DNA of 15,264 bases from Oscillospiraceae bacterium. Lineage in GTDB: Bacteria; Bacillota; Clostridia; Oscillospirales; Ruminococcaceae. The DNA is taken from positions 1-15,264 of the forward strand of contig SVMQ01000029.1 in the NCBI GenBank assembly GCA_015067375.1. Reading direction: 5' to 3'. Below are positions 535 to 14,005 of this stretch, one piece after another. Positions within the stretch are counted from its first letter, which is position 1. Each line of letters opens with the position of its first letter. Position numbers and translations under genes: made by a program. The notes under the pieces are model-generated. The model saw only the letters and a list, made by a program, of their open reading frames with translations. It had not been told where the DNA came from and made no database searches.

Positions 535-597
535 TAGAGAATTGAGCACAGCATTCAGAAATAAGTGAAATACAGATGATCTACAAATCGCTTTTTT

Positions 598-670: not shown

Positions 671-677
671 GAACGAT

Positions 678-770: not shown

Positions 771-843
771 ACTGTTGCAGCAAGCACAGACCTACACAAT
801 ATAAATCACCGCCGTAAGGAGGAAAAGGTACAGCGAAGCGTTG

Positions 844-1245
844 CTATTTCATCAGTTCATCCGTCAGCCTGATTATCTCAGGGGCGATCTTTTCGCGCTC
901 TTTTTTAATAATGCGGTTATATACGGGATAAGCCACACATACAAGCGCTATGCCGACGATGCCCACAAGTATTCCAACGAGCATAGCCGTTGCTCCCTGC
1001 AGACCGAGCAGCTCCCCGATCTCTGTCATTGCAAGGCTCATGCCCGTTCCCAGTATCAGTGCTCCGATCACACCCAACACGAGTGACACTACCGTTGCTT
1101 TTTTTGTGACCGCAGCGTCAAGCCGACGGAGCTGCTCCATCTTGTCCTCGGTCTTTTCGGGAGCTTCGTACTTTTTGCGAATGTTCTTTATCTCCTCCTG
1201 CTCCTTTGCGGAGTAGGTATAATTGAATGTTCCTTTGTTCTCCAT
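844..1245 (-). CDS. Small two-helix membrane protein, paralog 1 of 3
   Basis: 133 residues, no known enzyme motif. A charged N-terminal part of about 50 residues (FNYTYSAKEQEEIKNIRKKY) is followed by two hydrophobic segments at about 51-73 and 86-108, then a conserved YPVYNRIIKKEREKIAPEI tail. It is clearly paralogous to the products at 9629-9994 and 10082-10480: shared features are the YSAKE / IRxxY start, a LRRLDAxV motif, GxGMSLAMTxIG after helix 1, and YP(V/I)Y after helix 2. The start codon at 1243-1245 lies 3 bases after the previous stop and its AAAGGAG site is within the last codons of that gene, so it is translationally coupled. It is the last gene of the regulator-kinase operon. The role is unknown; the context suggests envelope stress. 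Confidence 0.85.
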   Translation of the reverse strand: MENKGTFNYTYSAKEQEEIKNIRKKYEAPEKTEDKMEQLRRLDAAVTKKATVVSLVLGVIGALILGTGMSLAMTEIGELLGLQGATAMLVGILVGIVGIALVCVAYPVYNRIIKKEREKIAPEIIRLTDELMK

Positions 1246-1248
1246 AGA

Positions 1249-2133
1249 TTACTCCTTTGCTGCATTCAGCAGCTTTATCTTTTTCGTTCCCTGTACTATC
1301 ATATAGACCGCCAATATCACCACCGTGACCGATACGGCAGCGCCGACGCAGCCCAGCAGTATCTTTTGCGAGAACGCATCCATCGTACCGTCGCTGAATG
1401 TTGTCAGCAGCGTTGATGTAAGCGTCAGCATGGATACGCACGCCGCTGCAAAGCTTATAGCTTTGGTTGCCGAGAATATTGGGCTGTTGTACTTTTTGTA
1501 TTTCACCATATTTATGATCGCAGTTGTAAATGCCGTAAAGGTATAGGCAGCCATTGCGATAGCTGTTATCATGTGGTGTGTGAATGTTCTGTTCCAGTAT
1601 ATCATAAAGAATACGATAAGCGCCAGTGCAAGGTTCATCACGAGAAACACGATACCGCAGGCACGATATTTGCGAAGCTCCTCAAGCATCTTTTCTCCTG
1701 GCTCATGCTTTCTCGAATGCCGCACCAGAAAGAACCTCATCACCGCGAGGCAGATATAATAAGCGCCGAGCGAACTAAACCAGAACGTACGGTGATAAAT
1801 ACCGAGCCAGAGTTGGAAGATACCATACAATCCATTCCATGCAAGCGAGCCGTAAAGCGAGATGTTCACACGCAGACGAGTATCCTCCTGCCATAGCCTT
1901 GCATACTTGTTCTCGTTCTTGAAAGTCCTGAAAAAGCAGATAAGATACGGTATCTTAAAGCACCATATTGTTAGCGTATAAGCGGCAAGCACGTAGGAGA
2001 TTATCGCTATGACCGACTCTGTTCCCAGAAACACCATTGAATAAACAAGAAATGCGGTGGCAACAGGAATCAGTATTATCATAACGGCAATGTGTGGAAA
2101 CAGCAGTGCTTTGCCGAGTTTTTTCCAGTCCAT
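1249..2133 (-). CDS. Multi-pass membrane protein of unknown function
   Basis: 294 residues, with about seven to eight hydrophobic segments (roughly 13-35, 40-62, 96-116, 120-138, 157-179, 186-206, 222-245, 258-283) joined by short basic loops such as RTFKNENKYARLW and RHSRKHEPGEK. No transport, enzyme or sensor motif is recognised. The start ATG lies one base after the kinase stop (TGATATG) with GGAGGG upstream, so it is translated with the kinase. Membrane proteins encoded directly after a kinase often modulate sensing or serve as accessory resistance factors; that is inference here. Confidence 0.8.
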   Translation of the reverse strand: MDWKKLGKALLFPHIAVMIILIPVATAFLVYSMVFLGTESVIAIISYVLAAYTLTIWCFKIPYLICFFRTFKNENKYARLWQEDTRLRVNISLYGSLAWNGLYGIFQLWLGIYHRTFWFSSLGAYYICLAVMRFFLVRHSRKHEPGEKMLEELRKYRACGIVFLVMNLALALIVFFMIYWNRTFTHHMITAIAMAAYTFTAFTTAIINMVKYKKYNSPIFSATKAISFAAACVSMLTLTSTLLTTFSDGTMDAFSQKILLGCVGAAVSVTVVILAVYMIVQGTKKIKLLNAAKE

Positions 2134-2134
2134 A

Positions 2135-3202
2135 TCACGCCCTCCGTATCTTCACGGTGAAAGCGGAGCCTTTGCCGACAGCGCTTTCTACGCTTATCTC
2201 GCCCTGCATGATATCCACGACCCTCTTGACCAGAGCAAGTCCCAGACCGTTGCCCTGCACCGAATGCGAGGTATCGCCCTGATAGAATTTCTCGAAGATA
2301 TGCGCGCCCACTTCAGGAGTCATACCGCAGCCTGTATCGGTCACTTTCACAACTGCATGATGCTCTGTTGCGGTGAGAGTTACGGTCACTGTGCCGCCTG
2401 ACGGAGTGAACTTGAACGCATTGGAAAACAGATTGTTCCAGACATGGCTCAGAAGCTCTGCGTCTGCCTTTACCCGTACATTTTCAGCGATATCGGTGTC
2501 TATTTCGATCTCTGCCTTTTCCCATACATTTTCATATTGCAAAAGGCACTCACAAAGCTGCTCGCCGAGGTCGAACTCCGTCACCTGCGGATATATCTGC
2601 TGATTTTCCAGTCGGTTCAGCTTCAAGATGTTGGTCATCATATCCGCCATACGGCGCGAGCCGTCAGTAACGCCTTTAGCGTATTCGATACGCTTTTCAT
2701 CGCTTAAATTCGGTGTTTGCAATAGAGTTCCGTAATTCTGCATTACAGCAAGGGGAGTTTTCATCTCGTGAGATACATTGGCAATAAAATCGGTGCGCAG
2801 AGTTTCTACGCTGGAAAGCTCCTTGGCCATTCGGTTTATCGCTTCGGCTATCTGGTTGAAGCCCTCCAGACCTGAGCTTTGCATAGGCTTTATGCGGACA
2901 GAAAAATCTCCCGACATTATCTTTGCAGTTGCTTCGGTTATGATCTTTGTGGGGCGTTCCACCATTATCTTACGACGGATATAATCGGCAAGCTTAAAAA
3001 GGAGCGTTATCAGGATAACGTTCAGAAACGTTACCTTTGCGGCAGCTGCGACATTGTCGGAAGTAAGTGTGAGGTCCATCGTATCTGCAAATATGCTTAT
3101 AAACAGCATCATACAACAGGATACGATAAATCCCACTGTCAGGAAAAACAGCATGAAGCTGCTGACCGCTCCCAGTATGCTTTGCAGTGTCAGCTTCTTC
3201 AC
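2135..3202 (-). CDS. Sensor histidine kinase (EnvZ/PhoR-like, HAMP-containing)
   Basis: 355 residues. Two membrane segments (about 13-38 and 53-74) flank a short extracytoplasmic loop of only about 15 residues, so it probably senses a signal in or at the membrane or through a partner. A HAMP-like linker (about 75-130) leads to the dimerisation/phosphoacceptor region with FIANVSHEMKTPL (phospho-His145), then the ATPase domain with N box WNNLFSNAFKFT (255-266), G1 DTGCGM (289-294), FEKFY and G2 GNGLGLAL (317-324). All catalytic motifs are present. It starts with GTG at 3200-3202, overlapping the regulator's TGA stop by four bases. The tiny sensor loop is typical of intramembrane-sensing kinases tied to peptide-antibiotic ABC transporters, which fits the neighbours. 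Confidence 0.95.
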   Translation of the reverse strand: MKKLTLQSILGAVSSFMLFFLTVGFIVSCCMMLFISIFADTMDLTLTSDNVAAAAKVTFLNVILITLLFKLADYIRRKIMVERPTKIITEATAKIMSGDFSVRIKPMQSSGLEGFNQIAEAINRMAKELSSVETLRTDFIANVSHEMKTPLAVMQNYGTLLQTPNLSDEKRIEYAKGVTDGSRRMADMMTNILKLNRLENQQIYPQVTEFDLGEQLCECLLQYENVWEKAEIEIDTDIAENVRVKADAELLSHVWNNLFSNAFKFTPSGGTVTVTLTATEHHAVVKVTDTGCGMTPEVGAHIFEKFYQGDTSHSVQGNGLGLALVKRVVDIMQGEISVESAVGKGSAFTVKIRRA

Positions 3203-3870
3203 TTAATCACCGCCTTGTAGCCAAGCCCGTGAACCGTCTTTATTTCAAAATCCTCGCAGTCCGAAAGCTTTGAGCGCAGCTTTGTCATGTACACATCAAC
3301 GGCTCTTGGAGCTGTTTCGGTGTCAGCATCCCAGAATTCATCCATAAGCTGTGTTCGGGTAAAGGTCTTTTTTGGATAACTCAGCAGCTTGTACAGGATA
3401 CTGAATTCACGATTGGTAAGGTTTATCTCCTCATCGCCGAGATATGCGGTGTGCTCGTCAGCGTCCATCACAAAGCTGCCTATTTCAAGCTTTCGTGATG
3501 ATGCTATCTTTGCTCGTCGAAGCAGTGCGCCGATACGCAGAAACAGCTCATCAAGGTCGATAGGCTTTACCATATAGTCGTCCACGCCGATGCGGAAGCC
3601 TCTCTGCTTGGATGCGATATCGTCACGGGCAGTCATAAACAGGATAGGGATATCCTGATTAAGCTCCCGTACATTTTTCGCAAACTCGAAGCCATCTACA
3701 TCGGGCATCATGATATCCGACACGATAAGGTCGAACATATTATCATACAGAGCATCGTAGGCTTCGGTAGCATTCAGGTAGCCTGTTGACTCGTATCCGC
3801 TGTGGTTCAGAAACGAGCAGACGGTCTTGTTCAGCTCCTTGTCATCCTCTACAACTAATATCTTAAACAT
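3199..3870 (-). CDS. OmpR/PhoB-family response regulator
   Basis: 223 residues from the chosen start MFKILVVEDD (3868-3870), which has GGAGGT seven bases upstream; an in-frame ATG at 3889-3891 is possible but would overlap the ribosome site. The receiver domain shows acidic residues D9/D10, phosphoacceptor D52 in VSDIMMPDVDG, T80 and K102. A winged-helix DNA-binding domain fills about 128-223 (LTNREFSILYKLLSYPKKTFTR and a C-terminal VHGLGYKAV). It is phosphorylated by the kinase encoded next and is expected to bind tandem direct repeats. Its own promoter carries two 11-bp-phased half-sites, suggesting positive autoregulation. Confidence 0.95.
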   Translation of the reverse strand: MFKILVVEDDKELNKTVCSFLNHSGYESTGYLNATEAYDALYDNMFDLIVSDIMMPDVDGFEFAKNVRELNQDIPILFMTARDDIASKQRGFRIGVDDYMVKPIDLDELFLRIGALLRRAKIASSRKLEIGSFVMDADEHTAYLGDEEINLTNREFSILYKLLSYPKKTFTRTQLMDEFWDADTETAPRAVDVYMTKLRSKLSDCEDFEIKTVHGLGYKAVIK

Positions 3871-3905
3871 AGCTTTACCTCCGCATATCATATCTTTACA
3901 TTGTT

Positions 3906-3937
3906 ATTGTACCACACAAATGTTAAAGTTTTGTTTA
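3906..3937 (-). promoter_or_regulatory. Promoter P1 of the regulator operon with two 11-bp-phased half-sites
   Basis: On the minus strand the half-sites TAAACA (3932-3937) and TTAACA (3921-3926) are 11 bp apart. The second begins 15 nt upstream of the -10 TACAAT (3906-3911). There is no acceptable -35 box. Geometry and half-sites match promoters P2, P3 and P4 further upstream. Probable binding site for the response regulator; binding is inferred, the repeat is seen. Confidence 0.65.
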
Positions 3938-3964
3938 CGTTTCGGTATTTTTCAGAAATTTTTC

Positions 3965-4005
3965 TCAAAATCAGCGGCAGTGCCTTTTACAGACACTGCC
4001 GAAAA
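3965..4005 (-). terminator. Terminator after the second ABC permease
   Basis: CGGCAGTG (3975-3982) and CACTGCCG (3994-4001) form a perfect 8-bp stem just after the permease stop codon. On the minus strand it is followed by CTGATTTTGAG, a modest T-rich tract. It would separate the transporter operon from the regulator operon, perhaps incompletely. Confidence 0.55.
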
Positions 4006-4007
4006 GA

Positions 4008-4817
4008 TCATACAAGACTTGTTTTGCTCAGGATCACTTTGCTGATAGCACCAAGCCCGAATGCAAACACCAGTCCGCCTATCAGACAAAGGAGCACGTT
4101 TATCATTGTAGAGCCTAGCGGAGTTATCATGGACACCATCATAAACAGGAGCATACCTCCGCCGAGCGAGCCGCAGAGTGCCAACCATGCTCTCTGCTTT
4201 GCCGCTACACTGATAAGCACGAAGATCGCAATGAACACAAGCATCAGGAACACCTTTGCTATCATACACATCACAAGATTCCCCGCAGTAAGTCCGTGAA
4301 GATCAAAGGACAGACCCGAGATAGCGCCGCCAAGCACCGAGCCGATAAAGTAGGCGATGAGCATAAGCGCTCCGCACACAAAGCCTGCAAGGGTCTTGGA
4401 GATGACATAATCGCCTTTCTTTGCACGGACGGTAAAGAGATTTTTGGCATAGCCGCTTCTGAAATCATCGGATATGAACAGGCAGATAAACACCGCCGCC
4501 ATCATAAACACCATGTTTATATTGCACATCATAAAAACATCGCTGCCGCCCATGTCTTCGCCATCTGGAAGCGTACCGATGTTCTGCCATGTATTTTCGG
4601 GTACTTCCATAATGGTTTCCACACCCGTCTGCGGATCAACTGAGACCGAGCCGTCCATCATAGCCATCATAACTGTCATGAGGATAGGCATAACAAGTGC
4701 GCAGGCTATCAGTATGTAAAAGAGCTTTGATTTGAACATTCTCCTGAAATCGACCTTCAGCATACTGCGGAGCCGCTTTCCGAAGCTATATTGGGGAAAC
4801 TTCACTGTATTCTCCAT
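4008..4817 (-). CDS. ABC-2 type permease, second pair (BcrB-like)
   Basis: 269 residues with about six membrane segments. Segment 1 (about 33-53) follows a basic amphipathic N-terminus (KVDFRRMFKSKLFYIL). A roughly 40-residue acidic outside loop precedes segment 2, and KNLFTVRAKKGDYVISKTLAG is the cytoplasmic stretch expected to contact the ATPase. It pairs with the ATPase at 4819-5718: the start ATG lies one base after that gene's TAA, with GGGAGG positioned within its last codons. It shares this arrangement and the RAKK/HAKK-xDYxISKTL motif with the permease at 5731-6567, so the two pairs arose by duplication. The family exports or removes peptide antibiotics from the membrane; the substrate is unknown. 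Confidence 0.88.
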   Translation of the reverse strand: MENTVKFPQYSFGKRLRSMLKVDFRRMFKSKLFYILIACALVMPILMTVMMAMMDGSVSVDPQTGVETIMEVPENTWQNIGTLPDGEDMGGSDVFMMCNINMVFMMAAVFICLFISDDFRSGYAKNLFTVRAKKGDYVISKTLAGFVCGALMLIAYFIGSVLGGAISGLSFDLHGLTAGNLVMCMIAKVFLMLVFIAIFVLISVAAKQRAWLALCGSLGGGMLLFMMVSMITPLGSTMINVLLCLIGGLVFAFGLGAISKVILSKTSLV

Positions 4818-4818
4818 C

Positions 4819-5718
4819 TTATTTGCCTCCCTTCATCAGATCAATGTAGTATTCTTCAAGACCTATCTTATCAGTCGTTATCTCAGTAACAGGTATGCCG
4901 TTTTCATACAGGTAAGTTACGACATCTTCGGGAGTAGTCAGGTCATATACACGGATATATCCTGCTTCGTCCTCCTCTACACGGGAGTATTTGCATCCGA
5001 GCAGGTTCTTTGCCCTGCTCATTTCTTCTGCCTTAATCGCAATATAGGTACGGCAGCTTGCGTCCAGCTCAGCGGCGGTCATCTCGCATATCATCTTGCC
5101 GTGGCGGATGATCCCGTAATGTGTTGCGACCTTCTGAAGCTCACCGAGCAGATGTGAAGATACAACGATACTGCGCTTGCCGTCCCTGATAATATCGGTG
5201 AACACCTCACGCATGATGCGCATACCGTCTGCGTCAAGGCCGTTAAGAGGCTCGTCCAGCACAAGCAAAGTGGGATCTCCGAGAAGTGCCATCGCAATGC
5301 CTACTCTCTGCTTCATACCGAGGGAGCAGTTCTTGTATTTGTTGCCTGCTGCGCCCTCCATCCTGACCATTTTCAGCACCTTAATGACCTCTTGCTCTGC
5401 ATTAACGATGCTTAAATTTTCCGCCTGAAGTATCATGTTGTCCCATACTGTAAGACCTGCAAAGCAACCCGGGGCTTCTATCAGCGCGCCTACCTTTGCT
5501 CTCACAGATACATCGGTGTTATCCTCGCCATACAGCTTTATCGAGCCGCCGCTTTTCGGGATAAGACCGCAGATCATCTTCTCGGTGGTGGATTTACCAG
5601 AGCCGTTTTCTCCGATAAAGCCGTAGATAGCACCCATAGGAACTGTCATATCCAGTCCGCATACAGCCTGCTTTTCGCCGAAATTCTTTGATAAATTCTT
5701 TATTTCTATCGCATTCAT
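4819..5718 (-). CDS. ABC transporter ATPase, second pair (BcrA / lantibiotic-immunity type)
   Basis: 299 residues from MNAIEIKNLSKNF; the start at 5716-5718 is preferred over the ATG three bases earlier because it gives seven-base spacing to GGAGG and matches the paralog's start. Walker A is GENGSGKST (about 36-44), the signature SLGMKQR, and Walker B LLVLDEPLNGLD, followed by the switch histidine in VSSHLLGEL. The Q-loop region reads GALIEAPGCF, the form usual in BcrA-like ATPases where the glutamine is replaced. About 70 C-terminal residues form the variable tail typical of this subfamily (EEYYIDLMKGGK). It powers the permease encoded next. The upstream permease stop is only 12 bases away, so all four transporter genes are one transcript. 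Confidence 0.93.
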   Translation of the reverse strand: MNAIEIKNLSKNFGEKQAVCGLDMTVPMGAIYGFIGENGSGKSTTEKMICGLIPKSGGSIKLYGEDNTDVSVRAKVGALIEAPGCFAGLTVWDNMILQAENLSIVNAEQEVIKVLKMVRMEGAAGNKYKNCSLGMKQRVGIAMALLGDPTLLVLDEPLNGLDADGMRIMREVFTDIIRDGKRSIVVSSHLLGELQKVATHYGIIRHGKMICEMTAAELDASCRTYIAIKAEEMSRAKNLLGCKYSRVEEDEAGYIRVYDLTTPEDVVTYLYENGIPVTEITTDKIGLEEYYIDLMKGGK

Positions 5719-5730
5719 CATATCGCCTCC

Positions 5731-6567
5731 TTAATACACATCGCTCTTTGAGAGAAGCTTCGTGCCGAGCACATTATAGAATACCGTCCATGCCGCCGAC
5801 ACGATAACGCATATCAGGAGAGCGCCGATGTTTGAAGAAAGGTTTGCATTGACCGACGAGCCATACAGGAAAATATTCAGGAAGAACGTGGGGACAGAAA
5901 GGTTTTCCACGATAGCCGCAACTCCGATGATAAGGATACCTGTGCCGAAAAAGAAGCTTGATACGATGGAAACACCGAAGTATCTTCTGAATATCACATT
6001 AAGGAAGGTGTAAAGGCTTGCCCAGCCGAAAGACATCACCATTTTGCCGAGTATCGCAACTATAAGAGAGCCTATGTTTACATCAGTTTCATAGCCTGCA
6101 AACAGGCCGCCCACAACGCCGCCGATAAGGTAAGTGATGCACATACAAGCCATCGCAAAAGCACATACGAGCGTCTTGGAGATCATATAGTCCTGCTTCT
6201 TTGCGTGGGTGGTGAAAAGCTGTTTTACATATCCGCTCTTATAGTCGTGTCCGATAAAGATGGACACCATGATACCGCCGAATATGAACACCATATTCAT
6301 ATTTGCATAATCAGCTATGCCCTCAATTACATAAAGCGACTTGGACGCGGCAATTATCTGCCACATATTCGAATAAAGCGGTACAGAAGTCGTTCCGTCG
6401 GGGGCAGGCATCATAGTCATAGCCGAGATCATTGCGGGAATGATAGCGGCGATCGCAAGGAATATGTAAAACATCGGGGTATGGAACAGGCGGTAAAGAT
6501 CCACGCCCAGCATACCTTTTATTCGTTCCGTAAAACTCGGAGCTTTAAACTCAGGTTCTCTTGCCAT
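5731..6567 (-). CDS. ABC-2 type permease, first pair (BcrB-like)
   Basis: 278 residues from MAREPEFKAP. The start at 6565-6567 is chosen because GGAGG lies nine bases upstream; the in-frame ATG at 6574-6576 directly abuts that site and is unlikely. About six membrane segments, with FHTPMFYIFLAIAAIIPAM first, an outside loop (PAPDGTTSVPLYSN), the coupling stretch KQLFTTHAKKQDYMISKTL and a glycine-rich YLIGGVVGGLFAGY segment. It overlaps nothing but starts one base after the ATPase TAA. It partners the ATPase at 6569-7471 in a self-protection type exporter; the substrate is unknown. Confidence 0.88.
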   Translation of the reverse strand: MAREPEFKAPSFTERIKGMLGVDLYRLFHTPMFYIFLAIAAIIPAMISAMTMMPAPDGTTSVPLYSNMWQIIAASKSLYVIEGIADYANMNMVFIFGGIMVSIFIGHDYKSGYVKQLFTTHAKKQDYMISKTLVCAFAMACMCITYLIGGVVGGLFAGYETDVNIGSLIVAILGKMVMSFGWASLYTFLNVIFRRYFGVSIVSSFFFGTGILIIGVAAIVENLSVPTFFLNIFLYGSSVNANLSSNIGALLICVIVSAAWTVFYNVLGTKLLSKSDVY

Positions 6568-6568
6568 C

Positions 6569-7471
6569 TTACGCATCCTCCTTCTGTGACATCAGCTCGA
6601 TATAATATTCTTCAAGACCGATCTTGTTCTTTTTAAGCTCGCTGACCACATGATCGTTCTTCATCAGGACATCAACTATTTCGGCTGTATTCTCCACATC
6701 GTAAACACGGATATAGTCGCCGTCAATGCGAACGTCCGCATACTTTTCTGCAAGCACCGCCTTTGCGCCTGACATATCCTTTGTTTTCAGCGACACAAAG
6801 ACCTGCGCTCTTGCGTCCATTTCCTCGGCGGATATCTCCATTATCATCCGTCCCTGACGTATCACGCCGTAATGAGTAGCGATCTTTTCAAGCTCGCCGA
6901 GGATATGAGAGGATATCAGCACAGTGCATCCGTAGTTTTTCGTGATGTCCACAAGAATCTCACGCATAATGCGCATACCATCGGTATCCAGACCATTGAT
7001 AGGCTCGTCCAGAATGAGTAGTGCAGGCTCTCCGAGGAGTGCCATTGCAATGCCTATCCTCTGCTTCATACCGAGTGAACAGCTTTTGAACTTGATGTTT
7101 GCGCTGTCCTCCATACGTACGATCTTCAGTACGCGTTCTATTTCTTCATCGGGATTTTCAAGCCCTAAATTGATAGTCTGCATACGCAGATTCTGATACA
7201 CGCTGGAATTCGGAAAGCATCCTGCATTTTCTATAAGCGCTCCCACTCTTACTCGTACACCTGCGTCGGTGTAATCTTTGCCAAACAGGCTGATAGTTCC
7301 CTCATCGGGCACAAGATGTCCGCAGAGCAGCTTCATAGTCGTGGATTTGCCTGAACCATTCTCGCCGATAAAACCATAGATAGAGCCTACGGGAACGGTC
7401 ATATTGAGATGATCTACCGCATACATCGAGCGAAAGCTCTTGGAAAGATCTCTGATCTCTATTGCATTCAT
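6569..7471 (-). CDS. ABC transporter ATPase, first pair (BcrA / lantibiotic-immunity type)
   Basis: 300 residues from MNAIEIRDLSKSF; GGAGG lies nine bases upstream of the ATG at 7469-7471. Walker A is GENGSGKST (36-44), the signature SLGMKQR (132-138), Walker B LLILDEPING (151-160), and the switch histidine H189 in SSHILGEL. The Q-loop is again replaced (GALIENAGCF, 78-86). Strong similarity to the ATPase at 4819-5718 runs to the last residues (GLEEYYIELM versus GLEEYYIDLM), showing tandem duplication of an ATPase-permease pair. Both lie 3' of a cardiolipin synthase gene, 25 bases after its stop. Confidence 0.93.
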   Translation of the reverse strand: MNAIEIRDLSKSFRSMYAVDHLNMTVPVGSIYGFIGENGSGKSTTMKLLCGHLVPDEGTISLFGKDYTDAGVRVRVGALIENAGCFPNSSVYQNLRMQTINLGLENPDEEIERVLKIVRMEDSANIKFKSCSLGMKQRIGIAMALLGEPALLILDEPINGLDTDGMRIMREILVDITKNYGCTVLISSHILGELEKIATHYGVIRQGRMIMEISAEEMDARAQVFVSLKTKDMSGAKAVLAEKYADVRIDGDYIRVYDVENTAEIVDVLMKNDHVVSELKKNKIGLEEYYIELMSQKEDA

Positions 7472-7496
7472 TGTTTGTTTTCCTCCTTTTGCTTTT

Positions 7497-9059
7497 TTAC
7501 AGCATTGGTGCAAATATTCTGACTACCGCACGGATAAACCGCTGCAGCAGATTTGTTTTTAACTTATCGGGTGTGATCTCAATACTCTTGTTCAGAGTAT
7601 CCTCTATATCTGCTTTCAGGTCACTGATAGCTGCGCAACGGTACATCCACACTCCGTTTTCAAAGTGGTGGACAAGACTGCGGTAATCAAGATTTATAGT
7701 GCCTATCATAGCGTATTCATCATCTGTGAGATAGCTTTTGGCATGGATAAATCCAGGTTCGTATTCATAGATCCGAACACCTGCCGACATCAGCCTGTGG
7801 TAAAAGCTCTGCGTCATACCAAACACCAGCTTTTTATCGGGTATATGCGGAACGATGATGCGGACATCCACTCCACGCAATGCCGCATTCTCAAGATCAG
7901 TGCAGAGATCGTTGTCTATGATGAGATACGGCGAAGTCATCCAGGTATATCGTGTGGCGGCAGTCAGCATATTCTGTATCACGCTTTTACCGACTCTGCG
8001 CTCATAAAGCGGATGAGGGCCGTCGCCAAAAGGTATTACATAACCGTCTTCCGAGATGCTCGCTGCTGGGTACAGGTCATCACGGAAATCCGGCATCTTT
8101 CGTACATTGATTCCGAAGTCTACAAGGAATAGCTTTGTCAGCTCCCATACTGCCTCTCCCTCAAGACGCAGGGCGGTGTCCTTCCAATGTCCGTGCTTGT
8201 GTATCTCGTTGATATATTCATCCGCAATATTCACGCCGCCTGTATATCCGACCTTGCCGTCAACAACTGTTATCTTTCGGTGGCTGCGGTTGTTGAACTC
8301 GCTGTCAGCGTTGCCTTTCAGCCTTGAAAAGGGAGTAGCTTCAATACCATACGATCTGAGCGTTTTATAATAATCCCCGGGGAGCGTCATCATACAGCCG
8401 ATGTCATCATACAGCACCTTGACCTCAACACCTGCTGCGGCTTTTCTTTTAAGGACATCCAGTATTGAGTTCCAGAACTTGCCCTCCTCAATGATGAAAT
8501 ATTCCATATAGATAAACTTTTCGGCGGTTTCCAGGTCCTCGAGCAATCGGCGGTGCATATCCTCGCCAAGCGGGAAGTATTCCTGCTTTGTATTAGTAAA
8601 AAGATGTGTCTTAGCAATATCGCACAGCATTTTTGCATGAGAGGCAACAATGGGAGCCTCATTTTGCAGCGTCGCAAATATCTTGTCGTCACTATGCTTA
8701 TATGTATTGCTTTTTAAAGCATCGAGCCGTCTGATAAAACGTTTCTGCAAGGTCCTTGAATAGAACATAAAATACAGCATAAAGCCTGCGATAGGCACGA
8801 TAAGCACAAATAAAAGCCACGGCGCTTTATAATCTGGATTATCATCAGATGCAATAATGCGTATCACGCAGAATATCTCCGTTGCCCATGCCGCAAGATA
8901 AAAATACGGCACATAGTAGCAGAACGCCGCTACGATAGCAATGACTGCAAGCACTTCAAAAAGCGTAATAAGAACGGCTATTATGTAGCGGACAGGGATA
9001 TAGGAATACTCACGTTCCACCTGTTTTTTACCGTCAAAGTAGCTGTATTTTCGTTTCAT
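7497..9059 (-). CDS. cls: Cardiolipin synthase (phospholipase D family)
   Basis: 520 residues from MKRKYSYFDG; GAGGTG lies just upstream of the ATG at 9057-9059, and a GTG six bases earlier overlaps that site. Two N-terminal membrane helices (about 27-50 and 53-70) and a third (about 81-102) precede two phospholipase D domains with HxKxxxxD motifs: H260-K262-D267 in NRSHRKITVVDG and H439-K441-D446 in FIHAKSYLTDD, each followed by the usual G-x-N (GGVN, GTIN). Bacterial Cls joins two phosphatidylglycerol molecules to make cardiolipin at the membrane. Length and motifs are those of an intact family member. Changes in Cls and cardiolipin are known to affect daptomycin and cationic peptide susceptibility in enterococci and staphylococci, which fits a membrane-defence role here. 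Confidence 0.95.
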   Translation of the reverse strand: MKRKYSYFDGKKQVEREYSYIPVRYIIAVLITLFEVLAVIAIVAAFCYYVPYFYLAAWATEIFCVIRIIASDDNPDYKAPWLLFVLIVPIAGFMLYFMFYSRTLQKRFIRRLDALKSNTYKHSDDKIFATLQNEAPIVASHAKMLCDIAKTHLFTNTKQEYFPLGEDMHRRLLEDLETAEKFIYMEYFIIEEGKFWNSILDVLKRKAAAGVEVKVLYDDIGCMMTLPGDYYKTLRSYGIEATPFSRLKGNADSEFNNRSHRKITVVDGKVGYTGGVNIADEYINEIHKHGHWKDTALRLEGEAVWELTKLFLVDFGINVRKMPDFRDDLYPAASISEDGYVIPFGDGPHPLYERRVGKSVIQNMLTAATRYTWMTSPYLIIDNDLCTDLENAALRGVDVRIIVPHIPDKKLVFGMTQSFYHRLMSAGVRIYEYEPGFIHAKSYLTDDEYAMIGTINLDYRSLVHHFENGVWMYRCAAISDLKADIEDTLNKSIEITPDKLKTNLLQRFIRAVVRIFAPML

Positions 9060-9065
9060 TATCAC

Positions 9066-9120
9066 ACCTCACAAACGCCGAAGAAGCGAGACGGCGGATA
9101 GTCGCCTCGCTTAATAGCAA
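9066..9120. other. Intergenic hairpin between the repeat protein gene and cls
   Basis: Inverted arms AAGCGAG and CTCGCTT around about 9083-9113 form a stable stem on the minus-strand transcript without a T tract. It is not a convincing terminator; it may tune read-through or mRNA stability between the upstream genes and cls. Confidence 0.35.
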
Positions 9121-9609
9121 TTAATCTTCTGTTACCGAAACAGTATATTTACCGTCCAGCCCCTTGGACTTCAGGAAGGCATTGAATTCCTCTTCAAGAG
9201 ATGCAGCGCTTACAGCTGTTGCTGTAGAGTAGGGCTTGCCGAGAGCGTTAGCGCGTGCAACGGCAGCCTTAGTTTCAGCCTGAACCTTTGCTATCTGTGC
9301 AGCGGTATTTGCAGGAGCGGCTTTTGCGCCCTTCTTGATGTTATCGATGACCAGCTTGTATTTCGCTTTGATGCCCTTGGTGCGAAGAAATTCCGCGAAC
9401 TCCTTATTATCCTCCGCAGACTGTGCCTTTACTGCTTCAAATTCTGCAATATCCTGAGCGTGCTGCTTTTTCAATGATTCGCTCATATTGTTGAAAGCCA
9501 GCTTGAATTTTGCGGTAATGCCCTTTGTATGAAGGAATGTAGTAAACTGCTCATTAAGCTCCAGCATCTCCTGCTCGATATCCTGCTGTGTCTTAGCTCT
9601 GTTATCCAT
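9121..9609 (-). CDS. Protein with a threefold 20-residue internal repeat, unknown function
   Basis: 162 residues, predicted soluble, no signal peptide, mostly helical and charged. It contains three copies of a motif of form F-x-x-F-L-[KRH]-[TS]-K-G-[IL]-x-[AG]-K-[FY]: residues 22-35 (FTTFLHTKGITAKF), 71-84 (FAEFLRTKGIKAKY) and 142-155 (FNAFLKSKGLDGKY), each followed by a short hydrophobic strand. The linkers are alanine- and glutamine-rich. I do not recognise a family. The start has GAGGAG eight bases upstream, and the preceding gene ends 19 bases before it, so it shares a transcript with the small membrane protein before it and cls after it. Confidence 0.82.
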   Translation of the reverse strand: MDNRAKTQQDIEQEMLELNEQFTTFLHTKGITAKFKLAFNNMSESLKKQHAQDIAEFEAVKAQSAEDNKEFAEFLRTKGIKAKYKLVIDNIKKGAKAAPANTAAQIAKVQAETKAAVARANALGKPYSTATAVSAASLEEEFNAFLKSKGLDGKYTVSVTED

Positions 9610-9628
9610 CTTTAAAACTCCTCTCTGC

Positions 9629-9994
9629 TTATCTCGCCATCAGCTTGTCGCTGAGTGTCAATATCTGTTTTGCGTACTTTTCTTTGCGGGAACCGAGAAT
9701 GTTCTTGTATATAGGATAGTTGATGATCGCCAGCAGCATACCCACAATACCGATCAGAATACCAGGGATCATGGGATCGCTGATGCCTACGGCAGAGCCG
9801 ATATCCGTCATAACAAGGCTCATTCCTGCACCCATGATGATAGCGGAGATGCTTCCGAATACATAAGCAAATACATTTGCAGGGCGCTTTACCTTGGCGT
9901 CAAGCTCACGGAGAGCATCAAGCTCTGTGCTTTCCTTTTCGGTGTACTGAGTACGGATCTTCTGTACGAGAAATGTCTGATCGTTCTTATTCAT
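9629..9994 (-). CDS. Small two-helix membrane protein, paralog 2 of 3
   Basis: 121 residues from MNKNDQTFLV; AGAGGT lies seven bases upstream of the ATG at 9992-9994, while an in-frame ATG 18 bases earlier has no such site. A charged N-terminus (IRTQYTEKESTELDALRELDAKV), two hydrophobic helices (about 42-62 and 76-96) and an INYPIYKNILGSRKEKYAKQIL tail align with the products at 844-1245 and 10082-10480. GAGMSLVMTDIG between the helices is nearly the same as GTGMSLAMTEIG in paralog 1. It is the first gene of the transporter operon, directly downstream of promoter P2. The function is unknown; expression with cls and the ABC pairs suggests a membrane stress role. Confidence 0.85.
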   Translation of the reverse strand: MNKNDQTFLVQKIRTQYTEKESTELDALRELDAKVKRPANVFAYVFGSISAIIMGAGMSLVMTDIGSAVGISDPMIPGILIGIVGMLLAIINYPIYKNILGSRKEKYAKQILTLSDKLMAR

Positions 9995-10031
9995 AGTGAT
10001 TACCTCTTTCATTGTTTTATTTTATGAGTAT

Positions 10032-10085
10032 ATTATACTACACTCTTGTTTACGAAAAATTTGAAAAATGTTTAAGTTTTGTTAA
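10032..10085 (-). promoter_or_regulatory. Promoter P2 of the transporter operon with four 11-bp-phased half-sites
   Basis: On the minus strand, TTAACA (10080-10085), TAAACA (10069-10074), CAAATT (10058-10063) and TAAACA (10047-10052) start every 11 bp. The last begins 15 nt upstream of a perfect TATAAT (10032-10037), and no -35 box is present. The outermost half-site overlaps the stop codon of the gene before it. The start codon of the 9629-9994 gene is about 38 bases downstream of the -10. Confidence 0.7.
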
Positions 10086-10480
10086 AGTGCAGAATTGTTT
10101 TCGTTGGTAAGTTCAGCTGTAAGCTCAAGTATTCTCGGAGCATACTGCTCTTTGGTCTTGCTGAATACCTTGCGGTATATCGGGTATGCAACTACCATAC
10201 CTGCCGTGCCGATGATTCCAAGCAGAACACCGCTCACAACTGCAAACATGCCGCTTCCGATAACCTGCATTGCAAGGCATAGCCCCAAACCGAACACCAG
10301 AACACCGCCCACTCCGATGCAGAGGGATTCGATCATTCCCGAATTCTGCACGATGCTATCCAGCCTCTTGAGTTCTTCAAGCTTGCTTTCCTCATGTGGG
10401 AGATACTTTCTTCTGATCTCCTGTACCTCTTTGTTATCCTTTGCCGAGTACCTATATACGAATGTTGTATCCTGATTCAT
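10082..10480 (-). CDS. Small two-helix membrane protein, paralog 3 of 3
   Basis: 132 residues starting MNQDTTFVYRYSAKD, with GAGG seven bases upstream. The charged N-terminus (EVQEIRRKY, LEELKRLDSIV) is followed by two hydrophobic helices (about 52-74 and 80-102) and a VVAYPIYRKVFSKTKEQYAPRIL tail. It is closest to paralog 1: YSAKxxxExxxIRxKY, AYP(V/I)Y and YAPxI/KIAPEI are shared. It starts 25 bases after the 11-residue-repeat protein gene and is probably on the same transcript from P3/P4. Its last codon and stop overlap the outer half-site of promoter P2. Function unknown. Confidence 0.85.
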   Translation of the reverse strand: MNQDTTFVYRYSAKDNKEVQEIRRKYLPHEESKLEELKRLDSIVQNSGMIESLCIGVGGVLVFGLGLCLAMQVIGSGMFAVVSGVLLGIIGTAGMVVAYPIYRKVFSKTKEQYAPRILELTAELTNENNSAL

Positions 10481-10505
10481 TTACATCCTCTTTCCGTTGA
10501 CTGAA

Positions 10506-10721
10506 TTATTTTTCTCCCGAAAGTCTTTTCTTGGCATCTTCTACGGTTTCACCTTCCTTTGCGAAAAGCTTTTCGACGCACTTGTCGGTCACTTTGCCGA
10601 AGCCATCCACAACTCCGTTTTCGATCTTCTTGTAGCCTTCCACTACGCCTTCCTCTATCTTCTTGTAACCCTTGACTACGCCCTCGGCGATCTTTTCATT
10701 AGATTCTACGAATTTAGACAT
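10506..10721 (-). CDS. Small protein built of 11-residue repeats
   Basis: 71 residues from MSKFVESNEK; AAAGGAG lies about eight bases upstream of the ATG at 10719-10721, while the in-frame ATG at 10755-10757 overlaps the promoter -10 and can be excluded. The core is consecutive 11-residue units: EKIAEGVVKGY, KKIEEGVVEGY, KKIENGVVDGF and a degenerate GKVTDKCVEKL, then KEGETVEDAKKRLSGEK. With an 11-residue period this forms an amphipathic helix, as in apolipoprotein- or LEA-like surface-binding proteins, so binding to the membrane surface is plausible. No transmembrane segment or signal peptide. It is first in the unit transcribed from P3/P4. Confidence 0.82.
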   Translation of the reverse strand: MSKFVESNEKIAEGVVKGYKKIEEGVVEGYKKIENGVVDGFGKVTDKCVEKLFAKEGETVEDAKKRLSGEK

Positions 10722-10755
10722 TGTAATGCTCTCCTTTTCCTGAACTTGTGATTTC

Positions 10756-10809
10756 ATTTTACCATACGGATGTTTGTGAGTTTTTTCAGAAATGTTTGAG
10801 TTTTGTTAA
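10756..10809 (-). promoter_or_regulatory. Promoter P3 with four 11-bp-phased half-sites
   Basis: Minus-strand half-sites TTAACA (10804-10809), CAAACA (10793-10798), GAAAAA (10782-10787, degenerate) and CAAACA (10771-10776) start every 11 bp. The last begins 15 nt upstream of TAAAAT (10756-10761). There is no -35 box. It drives the 11-residue-repeat protein gene, with a leader of about 28 bases. Confidence 0.7.
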
Positions 10810-10859
10810 TTTCAAAATTTCTTTTCAAGCGGTCATCGCTTTCCTCACCTTACACGTTG

Positions 10860-10913
10860 ATTATAACTTGTCAATGTTTTTGCGATGTTTTGGAAATGTT
10901 AAAGATTAATTAA
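10860..10913 (-). promoter_or_regulatory. Promoter P4, upstream of P3, with 11-bp-phased half-sites
   Basis: Minus-strand half-sites TTAATT (10908-10913, weak), TTAACA (10897-10902), AAAACA (10886-10891) and AAAACA (10875-10880) start every 11 bp. The last begins 15 nt upstream of a perfect TATAAT (10860-10865). No gene lies between P4 and P3, so this is either a tandem promoter or the start of a short leader RNA. Confidence 0.6.
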
Positions 10914-10962
10914 AATTGTATATTATATTTTTATACAAAAGTCCAAACTTTCGTATTATAAA

Positions 10963-11080
10963 GCATATTTTTGGGCAAAAAATATGCACACATTACTGCG
11001 AAATCTCGCAAATAACGTGTGCAATAATTATTTATTGTAGACCACCGCCGTTAGGCGGAGCAAGTGCAGCAAATTGCTGC
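10963..11080. repeat. Cluster of four hairpins ahead of an integrase remnant
   Basis: Four inverted repeats follow one another. GCATATTTTT / AAAAATATGC (10963-10987) is perfect. TGCACAC...GTGTGCA (10985-11023) has a long, slightly mismatched inner stem through TGCGA/TCGCA and shares bases with the first, so the two exclude each other. CCGCC/GGCGG is at 11045-11058 and GCAGCAA/TTGCTGC at 11066-11080. No gene lies in 10914-11084. Confidence 0.5.
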
Positions 11081-11084
11081 TTAC

Positions 11085-11228
11085 TTCATCGCTTCTTCAA
11101 AAGAGGCGGGCGTTGATGAATACTGTCTGAAACTCATCGTCGGACATCAGATAGGCGATGTGACCGAGCGTGTTTATACTCACCGCACCATTGAAAGTCT
11201 TGCGGCTGAAATTGAGAAAATAGGATAA
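11085..11228 (+). pseudogene. C-terminal remnant of a tyrosine recombinase (integrase)
   Basis: An uninterrupted 47-codon frame reads FIASSKEAGVDEYCLKLIVGH, then QIGDVTERVYTHRTIESLAAEIEKIG and a stop. LIVGH holds the conserved second histidine and VYTH the catalytic tyrosine of phage/ICE tyrosine recombinases. The catalytic arginines, the first histidine and the entire N-terminal part are missing; sequence before 11085 is a hairpin cluster and not integrase. It is a 3' fragment left by deletion or excision. Its natural terminator follows at 11234. A worse-preserved copy of the same tail is at 598-670. Confidence 0.8.
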
Positions 11229-11233
11229 AAAGT

Positions 11234-11271
11234 ATAACCTGTGAGGTGTGGGGCTCACAGGTTATTTTTGT
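11234..11271. terminator. Bidirectional terminator between the integrase remnant and the GNAT gene
   Basis: ATAACCTGTGAG (11234-11245) and CTCACAGGTTAT (11254-11265) make a perfect 12-bp stem with an 8-base loop. It is followed by TTTTTG on the plus strand and by ACTTTTTATCC on the minus strand, so it can end both converging transcripts. Confidence 0.8.
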
Positions 11272-11285
11272 GTAAGAATGATAAA

Positions 11286-11786
11286 TTAAAATTGATTACA
11301 GCAATATGTGTACATTATTTCTCTTAATTCTTTTCCTCCTATATTGTCATTCAAGTATTCATCAGTACAAACAAAACCATTCTTTTCATAGAACTTCCTT
11401 GCCCTCATATTATCCTGTAATACCCATAAAAGCAGTTTGTCATAACCCAAGGAGCTTAACTCTGTAATACATTTTTGCAGAAGATGTTTTCCGTATCCTT
11501 TTCCCATAAAATCTGGCAAAAAGTATATTGACACTATTTCACCATAATCACTAAACTGTTCCCATCTTGATTTGCAGAAACTTGCAGTGCCTATAACAAT
11601 TCCGTTTTCAATCAAAACTAGATTATTCATTCCCTCTCTGGTTATGCTGTTTGCCCAGCGACCCTTAGGAATGCTGTCGAGGTAACTCTGCGGAATAATA
11701 TCTTTATATGCAAACTTCCAGCTACTTTCATATATATTACTTATTTCATATAAATCGTCGTCTTGATTGATATATCTGATTACCAT
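11286..11786 (-). CDS. GNAT family N-acetyltransferase
   Basis: 166 residues. The acetyl-CoA binding motif A is visible as a strand (EIVSIYFLPDF) followed by MGKGYGKHLLQKCI (about residues 95-108), and motif B as WVLQDNMRARKFYEKNGF (about 121-138), both diagnostic of Gcn5-related acetyltransferases. Length is normal and the frame intact. The substrate cannot be told. An AGAGGTG site precedes the ATG, and a good promoter lies 40 bases upstream. The sequence is clearly more AT-rich than the core locus, and the gene sits between an integrase remnant and a repeat, suggesting separate acquisition. Confidence 0.9.
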   Translation of the reverse strand: MVIRYINQDDDLYEISNIYESSWKFAYKDIIPQSYLDSIPKGRWANSITREGMNNLVLIENGIVIGTASFCKSRWEQFSDYGEIVSIYFLPDFMGKGYGKHLLQKCITELSSLGYDKLLLWVLQDNMRARKFYEKNGFVCTDEYLNDNIGGKELREIMYTYCCNQF

Positions 11787-11825
11787 TGTGACACCTCTTA
11801 TGAATTTCTGTTACTCATTGGCTAA

Positions 11826-11854
11826 ATTATACCAAACTCCCTCGCAAAAGTCAA
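11826..11854 (-). promoter_or_regulatory. Promoter of the GNAT gene
   Basis: Minus-strand TTGACT (11849-11854) and TATAAT (11826-11831) separated by 17 nt, a near-consensus housekeeping promoter. It lacks the 11-bp half-sites. Confidence 0.75.
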
Positions 11855-11892
11855 CACAAAAAGGCGGTCACTTTTTACAGCGACCGCCTCAA
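11855..11892 (-). terminator. Minus-strand terminator within dispersed repeat copy 2
   Basis: AGGCGGTCGC (rc of 11880-11889) pairs with GTGACCGCCT (rc of 11862-11871) with one mismatch, followed by TTTTTGTG. It would end a minus-strand transcript coming from the 12000 region and insulate the GNAT promoter immediately downstream. Confidence 0.65.
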
Positions 11893-11955
11893 TATTTGTG
11901 TATTGTGAGTGTGTATTGCTTGTTTATTACAAAGCAAATCACACTCATTTTTAGG
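11862..11955. repeat. Dispersed repeat, copy 2, with a long hairpin
   Basis: It matches the repeat at 684-770. In addition to the terminator hairpin, TGAGTGTG (11906-11913) pairs with CACACTCA (11940-11947), and the inner arms ATTGCTTGT and ACAAAGCAAAT extend the stem to nearly 18 bp. In copy 1 only the outer TGAG/CTCA part and fragments of the stem remain. Confidence 0.55.
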
Positions 11956-12340
11956 CTGTTTTTATAAGCTCAAAACCGCATTTTCGCGTTCAGAGATTAC
12001 TTCATAGCCTCTTCAACAGCAACTGCGCAAGAAGACTATGGCAACTCTGTCCGTGAAAATGTTGCCCACCCTTGCAAATGGCTTAACAGAGGCGTTTGTA
12101 ACGGCTCTGTTTACATTATACATCAGGAGTGCGGTGCTGTCAAGCTTTGCCCTTCTCACGCAGGAAGCAGTCAAGAGTGTTCTTCCATTGTAGCAGAAAA
12201 TTGTCTATTATTTCGTTTAAGCAGTGACATTTTCATCACCTCTGCATATATCAATCATAGCCCTGAGAAAAACTAGGCAAAAGCAGCAGCAAAGCGGTTT
12301 TGCAGGGAATAAATAGAATAATTGTCACTAAAATATACAG
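11956..12340. other. Gene-poor stretch with an unidentified open region
   Basis: No recognisable gene. Between about 12013 and 12275 one plus-strand frame stays open for about 85 codons (EDYGNSVRENVAHPCKWLNR onward, ending PEKN). A second plus-strand frame gives 51 codons from the ATG at 12038 (MATLSVKMLPTLANG). A minus-strand frame from about 12195 to 12020 is also open. None has a ribosome site. It could be a decayed coding segment or an RNA; I cannot decide. Confidence 0.3.
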
Positions 12341-12343
12341 AAA

Positions 12344-12403
12344 CAGCCAACCAACTTTGGTATAATTAAGTTAGAACAAAAACCACACGAAAGGGGTTGG
12401 CTG
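12344..12403 (+). other. Left-end region of an insertion sequence: inverted repeat and promoter
   Basis: CAGCCAACC (12344-12352) and GGTTGGCTG (12395-12403) are perfect inverted 9-mers. They flank a TATAAT (12361-12366) and a GAAAGGGG ribosome site (12389-12396). The leader could fold so as to hide the ribosome site, a known way for insertion sequences to limit read-in expression. The -35 box is poor. Confidence 0.45.
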
Positions 12404-13054
12404 TTATCTATCGCCAAGAAATTTTACGGGATATCATACTTTTCGCATCTTCACCTCGACTTATCCGATTTTCCCGAAACTACCGCTAAGACAGGCAGAA
12501 ACGGCTTCTCAAAAAGAGCGTTGCTATGCGCTTTCATCGTTATGAAATGCGAATGCTTTTCCTACATTACTGATTTAGTTGATTATCTTAACAATAATCT
12601 CATCATTGCTTATTACTGTGGCTTTGACATTATGAAACCGCTTCCGTTCTACTGGACTTTCGATCGATTCATCCGCAATCTTGACAACGAATTGCTCAAA
12701 AAACATATGAAGTCGATAGTTCTGAAGCTGTCTGAAATGGGTATTATCGATATTTCGTTCATAGCTCTCGACGCTACTCCCATCAGCGCAAACACTCATC
12801 AGAACAACCCGAAAGCCTTCGCTAAAAATAAGTTCTCAAAGGATAAGCAGCCTAAGTCAGACAAGGACTACAGATTAGGTGTTCATACTGCCTCGAATCA
12901 GCATAACGAGCGTAAATCTGAATATTTCTGGGGCTACAAGAACCATATGCTAGTCGACTGCGTAGTAGGCTTGCCTGCATTTGAAATGACTACTAGTGCA
13001 GACATTGCTGACAGTACCGTCGCTCTCGATATTCTAAGCAAGACCAACGAAGTT
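12401..13054 (+). pseudogene. Truncated DDE transposase, IS4-like
   Basis: The frame is open from about 12401 (no ATG; CTG just after GAAAGGGG, or TTG at 12521) and reads SIAKKFYGISYFSHL, then ALLCAFIVMKCECFSYITDL, YWTFDRFIRNLDNELLKKH, FIALDATPISANTHQNNPK and FWGYKNHMLVDCVVGLPAFEM. The Asp of LDATP and the D in HMLVDCVVGLP are consistent with the first part of an RNase-H-fold DDE domain of the DDE_Tnp_1/IS4 group. Homology ends at VALDILSKTNE (13049-13051), where the sequence passes into the convergent IS1182-type gene. The third acidic residue and the right end of the element are missing, so it cannot transpose by itself. The exact family is not certain. Confidence 0.75.
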
Positions 13055-13856: not shown

Positions 13857-13935
13857 TTCATCACCCTACTTTATTATACCACATTTGCGAAAAAACCGGC
13901 TTTCGCTGGACTTTTTCGACAGACTGTCAACCTCT
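13857..13935 (-). other. Left end of the IS1182-type element
   Basis: It contains a minus-strand TATAAT (13873-13878), a stem CCAGC-gaaa-GCCGG (one mismatch) followed by TTTTTT which may shield the transposase from read-in, and GACAGACTGTC (13919-13929), an 11-base palindrome that may mark the element end. The true terminal inverted repeat cannot be fixed because the other end is deleted. Confidence 0.4.
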
Positions 13936-13968
13936 TCAAGCAGTGGTTATTTGCGCTGAAATTACAGC

Positions 13969-13999
13969 AAAACCGCCGCACCCTTTCGAGTGCGGCGGA
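13969..13999 (-). terminator. Terminator of the secreted amidase gene
   Basis: CCGCCGCAC (13973-13981) and GTGCGGCGG (13990-13998) form a perfect GC-rich 9-bp stem a few bases after the stop codon at 14006. On the minus strand it is followed by TTTTGCTG. Confidence 0.85.
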
Positions 14000-14005
14000 A
14001 TGTAT

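Follow-up and report, generated by a model that had tools for sequence, protein, structure and literature searches.

Phased half-site promoters at a two-component locus of an Oscillospiraceae bacterium and their linkage to the encoded response regulator

Promoter and gene profiling was done of a stretch of 15,264 nucleotides from an Oscillospiraceae bacterium (assembly GCA_015067375.1, contig SVMQ01000029.1, positions 1-15,264; this whole stretch is called the window). Its minus strand carries four promoters, P1 to P4, which share short half-sites in 11-bp phase ahead of the -10 box, together with a gene for an OmpR/PhoB-family response regulator (RR). From p83 through s133 every gene is on the minus strand, and the order is P4, P3, p83, p132, P2, p127, p162, the cardiolipin synthase gene cls, two ABC ATPase/permease pairs, a hairpin, P1, RR, the sensor kinase (HK), p294 and s133. 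The positions are given in Table 1. On the comparisons reported here it is very probable that P1 to P4 serve as the operators and promoters through which the encoded RR controls a regulon.

The half-sites were extracted as hexamers and have the form HWAACA. They follow one another at start-to-start steps of 11 bp, and the innermost one starts 15 nt ahead of the -10 box; it is named k0, and the positions 11, 22 and 33 nt farther up are named k1, k2 and k3. The start site of P1 lies at about 3899 by position, and those of P2 and P3 are predicted at 10025 and 10749, for P2 from a conserved C(-1)/A(+1). P4 and P3 stand in tandem, P4 being the second promoter and lying 104 bp farther upstream, and P2 and P3 have TTAACAAAACTYAAACATTT in common. 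A preliminary description of this DNA had already proposed these four promoters, and its coordinates, its 11-bp phase and its degenerate positions proved right to the base. It had also stated that none of the four has a -35 box while the promoters named PHP and GNAT do, which agrees with a list of 27 sigma-70-like sites of the window (a scan weak by itself, with 25.5 sites in shuffles): P1 to P4 are all absent from it, and PHP (TTGCAA-17-TAAAAT, 534-506) and GNAT (TTGACT-17-TATAAT, 11854-11826) are both in it. The extended -10 TG of P1, the conserved spacers and the C(-1)A(+1) start site conserved in the arrays are further features, found in the present work.

Table 1. Positions of the promoters, genes and hairpin on the minus strand of the window
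Feature	Position	Strand	Details
P1	3906..3937	-	TAAACA 3937-3932, TTAACA 3926-3921, TG 3914-3913 (extended -10), -10 TACAAT 3911-3906
P2	10032..10085	-	TTAACA 10085, TAAACA 10074, CAAATT 10063, TAAACA 10052, -10 TATAAT 10037-10032
P3	10756..10809	-	TTAACA 10809, CAAACA 10798, GAAAAA 10787, CAAACA 10776, -10 TAAAAT 10761-10756
P4	10860..10913	-	TTAATT 10913, TTAACA 10902, AAAACA 10891, AAAACA 10880, -10 TATAAT 10865-10860
RR, OmpR/PhoB-family response regulator (MFKILVVEDD...)	3199..3870	-	recognition-helix region AVDVYMTKLRSKL
HK, sensor kinase	2135..3202	-	HisKA + HATPase_c
p294, polytopic membrane protein	1249..2133	-	in relatives often third gene of the regulator operon
s133, small membrane protein	844..1245	-	fourth gene of the regulator operon; paralogue of p127/p132
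p83 (71 aa from MSKF), small 11-residue-repeat protein	10506..10721	-	
p132, small membrane protein	10082..10480	-	downstream of P3/P4
p127 (121 aa from MNKND), small membrane protein	9629..9994	-	first gene after P2
p162, soluble protein	9121..9609	-	repeats of type FLxxKGIxAKYKLV
cls, cardiolipin synthase	7497..9065	-	TIGR04265, 328 bits vs cut-off 290
ABC region	4008..7474	-	ATPases 6569-7474, 4819-5721; ABC-2 type permeases 5731-6576, 4008-4817
Terminator-like hairpin	3975..4001	-	between ABC operon and P1

The rarity of the pattern was determined in the window and in the genome of the host itself (G000; 2,232,544 bases, 73.79% complete). A scan of the window with HWAACA-N9-TANWAT returned four matches, which are exactly P1 to P4, where 0.15 are expected and none of 200 shuffles reached four. 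Over the host genome, k0 and k2 with TANNNT matched only P2, P3 and P4 and nothing outside the window (reversed-pattern control 0), and k0 and k1 with TANWAT matched three times (control 0), two of them inside the window (P1 and P4); the third (C233:4428-4459, ATAACACAGACATAACA) is without the conserved spacer and was judged to be chance. When up to three mismatches were allowed, the four-position array recovered P2 and P3 without mismatch, P4 with one and a single place elsewhere with three, against two control matches. Phased sites with their -10 thus lie nearly all at this locus and are not spread over unrelated genes, as the preliminary description had expected of a local regulon.

Linkage of the site to the RR was surveyed in a sample of 43 genomes of the genus, the host included. 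The RR was found at E<=1e-60 in 14 of them, of which 13 have an orthologue at 75% identity or more and the other, G035, has only a 47% relative. The P1-type pattern occurs at 22 places in 19 genomes (reversed control 8), and 14 of these places have the P1 consensus TWAACA-AAACK-TTAACA-N9-TANAAT (TWAACAAAACKTTAACA) and belong to exactly the 13 orthologue-bearing genomes, G011 having it twice; of the eight non-consensus places, two are further ones in G000, and six orthologue-free genomes, among them G035, have one apiece. The consensus site is therefore present in 13/13 genomes with the RR orthologue and in 0/30 others (Fisher 2.7e-11, uncorrected for relatedness). The pattern of k0 and k2 with a -10 occurs at 18 places in 13 genomes, and 14 of these places are in nine of the 13 orthologue-bearing genomes.

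A scan of bacteria with TWAACAAAACNTTAACA-N9-TANWAT, taking one genome per species, gave at least 117 matches. Among the matches listed, 60 are followed at -1 to 75 nt by the gene of an RR orthologue with about 65-96% identity; a TG stands ahead of the -10 in 54 of these 60. Another 37 of the 117 listed are one near-identical Pelagibacterales site, TTAA-N7-TTAA with a -10, which is not upstream of an RR orthologue and is intergenic in L065, the one record read. The remaining 20 listed matches include six that are also RR starts, four of them (L072, L083, L108 and L123) with a partial RR below the stricter score filter and two (L167 and L180) with an RR-like start in the printed sequence after the P1-type site. 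Four more precede other genes, namely p294-like genes (L070, L121), an MFS transporter gene (L087) and an unnamed gene (L127), and L155 runs off its contig. Neither the Pelagibacterales matches nor nine scattered ones were considered related. L098 and L150, both among the nine, have a common site that lies 83 nt ahead of the gene for an ABC ATPase with 32% identity to ABC300. The RR-carrying loci among the 80 with titles are mostly from Oscillospiraceae, Ruminococcus, Ruminiclostridium, Lachnospiraceae and Clostridia bacteria, many of them from animal guts. Some of these loci are the same as genus or family genomes (G005, G009, G027, G037, G042 and G141, probably also G012, G031 and G032), so that the scans are not fully independent.

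Loci were also chosen by protein alone, and 260 nt upstream of the RR (169 nt in L264) were analyzed in 13 genus loci and 30 family loci besides that of the window. In the family the RR was found at E<=1e-85 in 31 of 197 genomes, covering 26 of 125 genera; at most 14 candidate genes were scored per genome, and the RR-negative set may hold a few misses. The dyad of half-sites lies within the 260 nt in 12 of the 13 genus loci, the thirteenth (L052) having its site about 580 nt upstream, in 12 of the 15 family loci at 70% identity or more, and in 6 of the 15 at 59-67%. In 24/24 of the higher-identity loci (12 genus and 12 family) nine nucleotides separate the dyad from the start of a -10-like hexamer. 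When these 24 were aligned with P1 of the window, mean pairwise identity was 0.90 over half-sites and spacer, 0.84 over the -10 and 0.66 over the nine nucleotides between, the rows being placed by their half-sites so that half-site conservation is partly selected, while the spacer, TG and -10 are unselected; in the flanks it fell to 0.42 (the 40 nt upstream) and 0.41 (downstream). The spacer AAAC is kept in 23 to 25 of the 25 rows per column, the TG in 24, and k0 is TTAACA in all 25; the outer half-site is CAAACA in 8 of the 12 family rows. An AAWTTTTT-like tract at about -63 to -55, upstream of the dyad, is also conserved in the P1 orthologues and may be an UP-like element. The recognition-helix core AVDVYMTKLRSKL is almost invariant across RR orthologues, the dyad-less ones included, so that it marks the family and does not alone predict the site. 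Two paralogues at 45-47% identity (L062 and L063) have the helices DVHISRLRERF and DVHINRLRERF and no dyad in the stretches examined, L062 having one isolated match of half-site and -10.

The four-position array was searched in the 197 family genomes as TTAAYA-N5-HWAACA-N16-HWAACA-N9-TANNAT, and 19 places in 13 genomes were obtained against one reversed-control match; in G236 an identical 54-bp stretch on two contigs accounts for two of the places. Array genomes make up 10 of the 31 RR-positive genomes and 3 of the 166 RR-negative ones (Fisher 4.8e-7), and of these three, G221 and G234 have pieces of an RR beside the array and G207 has none. The narrow P1 pattern TWAACANAACNTWAACA-N9-TANWAT was found in four family genomes (control 0), three of them RR-positive and the fourth G221.

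A set of 47 distinct arrays was then assembled, with P2 and P3 in it and P4 left out because its outer position is TTAATT. Among the columns not used for selection, A(-36) is found in 47, A(-35) in 44, C(-51) in 42, C(-40) in 36, C(-1) in 38 and A(+1) in 39, so the spacers read WWWC(T); k1, which lies over the usual -35, is the weakest position. An open reading frame with a Shine-Dalgarno-like motif lies downstream of 45 of the 47, in 43 of these at 28-58 nt from the -10. A TG before the -10 is present in 4/47 arrays as against 24/25 P1 promoters. There are thus two promoter classes, an autoregulatory one with two half-sites and an extended -10, and a target one with four phased positions and mostly no TG; there are exceptions, as in G144, where the RR itself stands behind an array (L232, L259). 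As judged from these sequences, the target class may be thresholded by cooperative binding, with basal activity at P1.

The first genes after the 47 arrays were classified, with the reservation that the tally is biased, many loci having been fetched for their nearness to the RR, and that the 19 places of the family array scan are unbiased. Single-linkage clustering puts 26 of them together in a group of small proteins, mostly of the membrane, that includes p127, p132 and s133; 23 of them are direct blastp matches to these three, and at least 12 are of a 122-127-residue type with an LGMCM motif. The others comprise three p83-type proteins, three ABC ATPases, a p294-like protein, the RR itself and a p162-linked protein and, by Pfam, two epimerases, an SDR, a PlsY-type glycerol-3-phosphate acyltransferase, a CmpB-type membrane protein and three short open reading frames; for two arrays no open reading frame was present in the stretch examined. 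The arrays in L224 (at 1501) and L229 are followed by a protein of about 470-484 residues, which in L224 (about 484 residues) ends in a p83-like stretch, residues 446-483, of 39-47% identity to p83-type proteins, by which it was linked to the p83-type group; the L229 homologue is without such a match. The target class, made up of small membrane proteins, p83 and ABC transporters, carries four-position arrays in other genera also. As separate observations, arrays stand in tandem 104 bp apart in the window (P4/P3) and 106 bp apart in G236 (L235, 1501 and 1607), and in both cases the outer -10 is followed by a leader of similar sequence, GTAAGGTGAGG..AAGCG; the first gene is p83 in the former and p127 in the latter. 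Several array promoters of the 122-aa membrane-protein gene (L055, L057, L060, L078, L083, L227 and others) have a leader like AATCAGCAAGTGAGGAAACTCAC just after the -10, and at its 5′ end the mRNA might thus fold into a small hairpin.

Several results weigh against a regulon so closely tied to this RR. In the host genome the 11-bp dyad without its -10 is not enriched (24 matches, 5 of them in the window, vs 28 in the reversed control), so only the dyad at its fixed distance from the -10 is informative, and the dyad alone was dropped as a search key; the regulon called local may be undercounted, this genome being 73.8% complete. The genus pattern of k0 and k2 with a -10 has a reversed control of 7, and 4 of its 18 places are in the orthologue-free genomes G010, G019, G020 and G026. 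The places in G010 and G026 (completeness 90% and 77%) look like real arrays, those in G019 and G020 do not, and one in an RR genome (G027, C144) resembles plain AT-rich DNA. The strict four-position array was found in only 10/31 RR-positive family genomes and the narrow P1 pattern in only 3/31, the latter for the most part since CAAACA, the outer half-site in these genomes, is excluded by that pattern. P3 of the window is one of the four arrays with a TG, contrary to the class rule. The preliminary description had looked to orthologous loci to keep the repeats, and this mostly holds: the 12/13 genus and 12/15 family loci (at 70% identity or more) keep them, while L247, L248 and L258 at that identity have no dyad in 260 nt despite the same recognition-helix type, and 9/15 loci at 59-67% are without a coding-strand dyad; in three of these nine (L260, L264 and L267) the dyad is on the other strand, in L267 as the full array of a divergent gene.

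The RR has Response_reg (PF00072, 88.4 bits) and Trans_reg_C (PF00486, 76.2 bits), both above cut-off, and this pairing of receiver and winged helix bears out the OmpR/PhoB type assigned to it before; head-to-tail half-sites in about 11-bp phase upstream of the -10, as the direct-repeat operators of that family have them, are found at the P1 orthologues and in the arrays. In HK the hydrophobic segments are at 17-35 and 51-69 with only about 15 residues between them, so its signal is probably sensed in or at the membrane. The hairpin between the ABC operon and P1 suggests that the regulator operon is its own transcription unit, and from P2 to the ABC pairs no strong terminator-like site is listed between p127, p162, cls and the ABC genes. 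The stop codon of p132 overlaps the outermost half-site of P2, and the wider group of p127 is the commonest array target seen elsewhere. The repeats of p83 (IAEGVVKGYKK/IEEGVVEGYKK/IENGVVDGFGK) give 21 identities at lag 11, and every other lag between 1 and 15 gives 2 to 9; at E<=0.001 the protein has 3229 relatives, those few of the best 120 that have a name being called hypothetical protein, and its repeats presumably resemble the 11-residue membrane-binding repeats of synuclein. For p162 no Pfam or NCBIfam family scored above its cut-off. The second ABC ATPase was named from homology to the first. Both permeases have matches in ABC-2 families; the one of 269 residues passes the curated cut-offs and the one of 281 residues stays below them. 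No known RNA family was found in the window at gathering score, and an open reading frame at 15091-15249 (minus strand), made of the repeated unit KKSPMIFRKASKPHNLNCE, is probably no gene but a repeat array.

Among known systems the closest geometry, by comparison of sequences, is that of streptococcal CiaR, whose site is given in the part of the source consulted as TTTAAG-N5-TTTAAG with ten nt to the -10 (PMC3091779). The phase is 11 bp in both, and when the sites are aligned on TTAA the distance from core to -10 is 11 nt in both (PMC3091779). In the recognition helix, the only part compared, VVEVYVSKVRKKL of CiaR and AVDVYMTKLRSKL of the RR share V, V, Y, K, R, K and L in register (PMC3091779). 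The invariant G of TTTAAG is not found here, where half-sites end in CA, and unlike CiaR most targets here have four positions, the autoregulatory promoter has a conserved TG and the target set is different. Pho boxes are likewise built of direct repeats with an 11-nt unit, to which the effector domains of OmpR/PhoB proteins bind head to tail while contacting sigma (PMC4415409). An identity of the RR with PhoB/PhoP is unsupported by curated models, for it scores below TIGR02154 (163.8 vs 296.2 bits) and NF053854 (167.5 vs 270), and no phosphate gene is among the array target groups identified, several groups being unnamed and the regulons partly covered. Bacillus PhoP boxes are TTAACA-like, for which our literature search gave no paper stating so. 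The parallel with the Bacillus PhoP box drawn in the preliminary description is thus reasonable, but CiaR fits the spacing to the -10 exactly, and the RR misses the PhoB and YycF cut-offs. A CtrA box is TTAA-N7-TTAA, which TTAACAAAACTTTAAC contains and which the Pelagibacterales site also shows; the latter is alphaproteobacterial and does not lie near this RR, and the likeness is probably convergence. OmpR-type regulators need not use a direct repeat, since CmrR of C. difficile uses an inverted one, as far as the available part of PMC12548384 tells.

The RR could bind the arrays and yet repress, as an array spanning -60 to -22 could block the polymerase. The sites do overlap the -35 region, where repressors often sit, and P1 might still be repressed at high RR, but no -35-like element is listed that a repressor could occlude, bare -10 promoters usually need help to fire, and the inner site ends 9 bp before the -10 as in the CiaR-activated promoters of the excerpted source when TTAA cores are aligned (PMC3091779). 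We give repression as the general mode little credence.

It is less likely still that the sites belong to another member of the OmpR family whose half-site is alike, WalR/YycF being the foremost candidate. The WalR site reads TGTWAH-N5-TGTWAH in the part of PMC9210968 consulted; the phase is the same, the half-sites match in part in opposite orientation, TTAACA having the reverse complement TGTTAA which fits TGTWAH, and as WalRK is described there in all Firmicutes a diverged WalR could escape the model used (PMC9210968). The half-sites TAAACA and CAAACA misfit TGTWAH, and the RR scores 124.2 vs 340 bits for the YycF equivalog. That equivalog (NF040534, E<=1e-70) was found in 0/43 genus genomes, the control search being positive in 4/14 named genomes, and the site follows the RR gene (13/13 vs 0/30). 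Chance in AT-rich intergenic DNA, or meaningless copies of one duplicated promoter, can be dismissed: P2 and P3 do share a segment, half-sites become more frequent in AT-rich spacers and the dyad by itself does not outnumber its control, but the -10 phase is exact, the sites are conserved in other genera against diverged flanks, and reversed controls are 0 (host genome, k0 and k2), 0 (family, narrow P1) and 1 (family array), being higher, 8 and 7, for the looser genus patterns.

Regulation by the encoded RR, which the genus, bacteria-wide and family comparisons support, may be pictured as follows. RR subunits would bind head to tail on one face of the DNA, one per 11-bp unit TWAACA-WWWCT. The last subunit would lie at -27 to -22, where k0 is positioned, directly upstream of a polymerase placed on the -10 without a -35. 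At P1 one RR dimer on two strong half-sites, with the extended -10 (TGn), would give basal expression and positive feedback of RR-HK-p294-s133, whereas the four in-phase positions of P2, P3 and P4, in a class mostly without TG, would take two dimers and fire cooperatively and only with the RR, P4/P3 driving p83-p132 and P2 driving p127-p162-cls-ABC. The output would remodel the membrane through cardiolipin synthase, ABC transporters and small membrane proteins, and in relatives through PlsY, an MFS transporter and other genes. The predicted regulon is most likely an envelope or lipid stress response. A wider picture is tentative and rather doubtful as a whole: a membrane-homeostasis regulon across many genera of gut Clostridia with two promoter grades (self-priming, and thresholded targets), in which p83, as an amphipathic protein of 11-residue repeats, might coat stressed membrane like synuclein- or apolipoprotein-type helices, the p83 module serving also as a C-terminal tail in L224, with cls, PlsY, ABC transporters and small membrane proteins as effectors. 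The mechanism is of a known kind and the regulon itself is undescribed as far as our literature search shows, which covered titles and the starts of abstracts with few subscription journals and gave no paper on it.

By this analysis the operator of a so far uncharacterised two-component system of uncultured gut Clostridia is defined, its regulon is predicted and its promoters fall into two classes. The signature of HWAACA phased by 11 bp with N9 to the -10 can be used for searching metagenomes. One circuit, probably membrane-sensing, would tie together membrane-lipid synthesis, ABC transporters and several small-protein families of no assigned role, and the natural split between two sites with TG and four sites mostly without it offers a test system for how OmpR-type activators set their thresholds.

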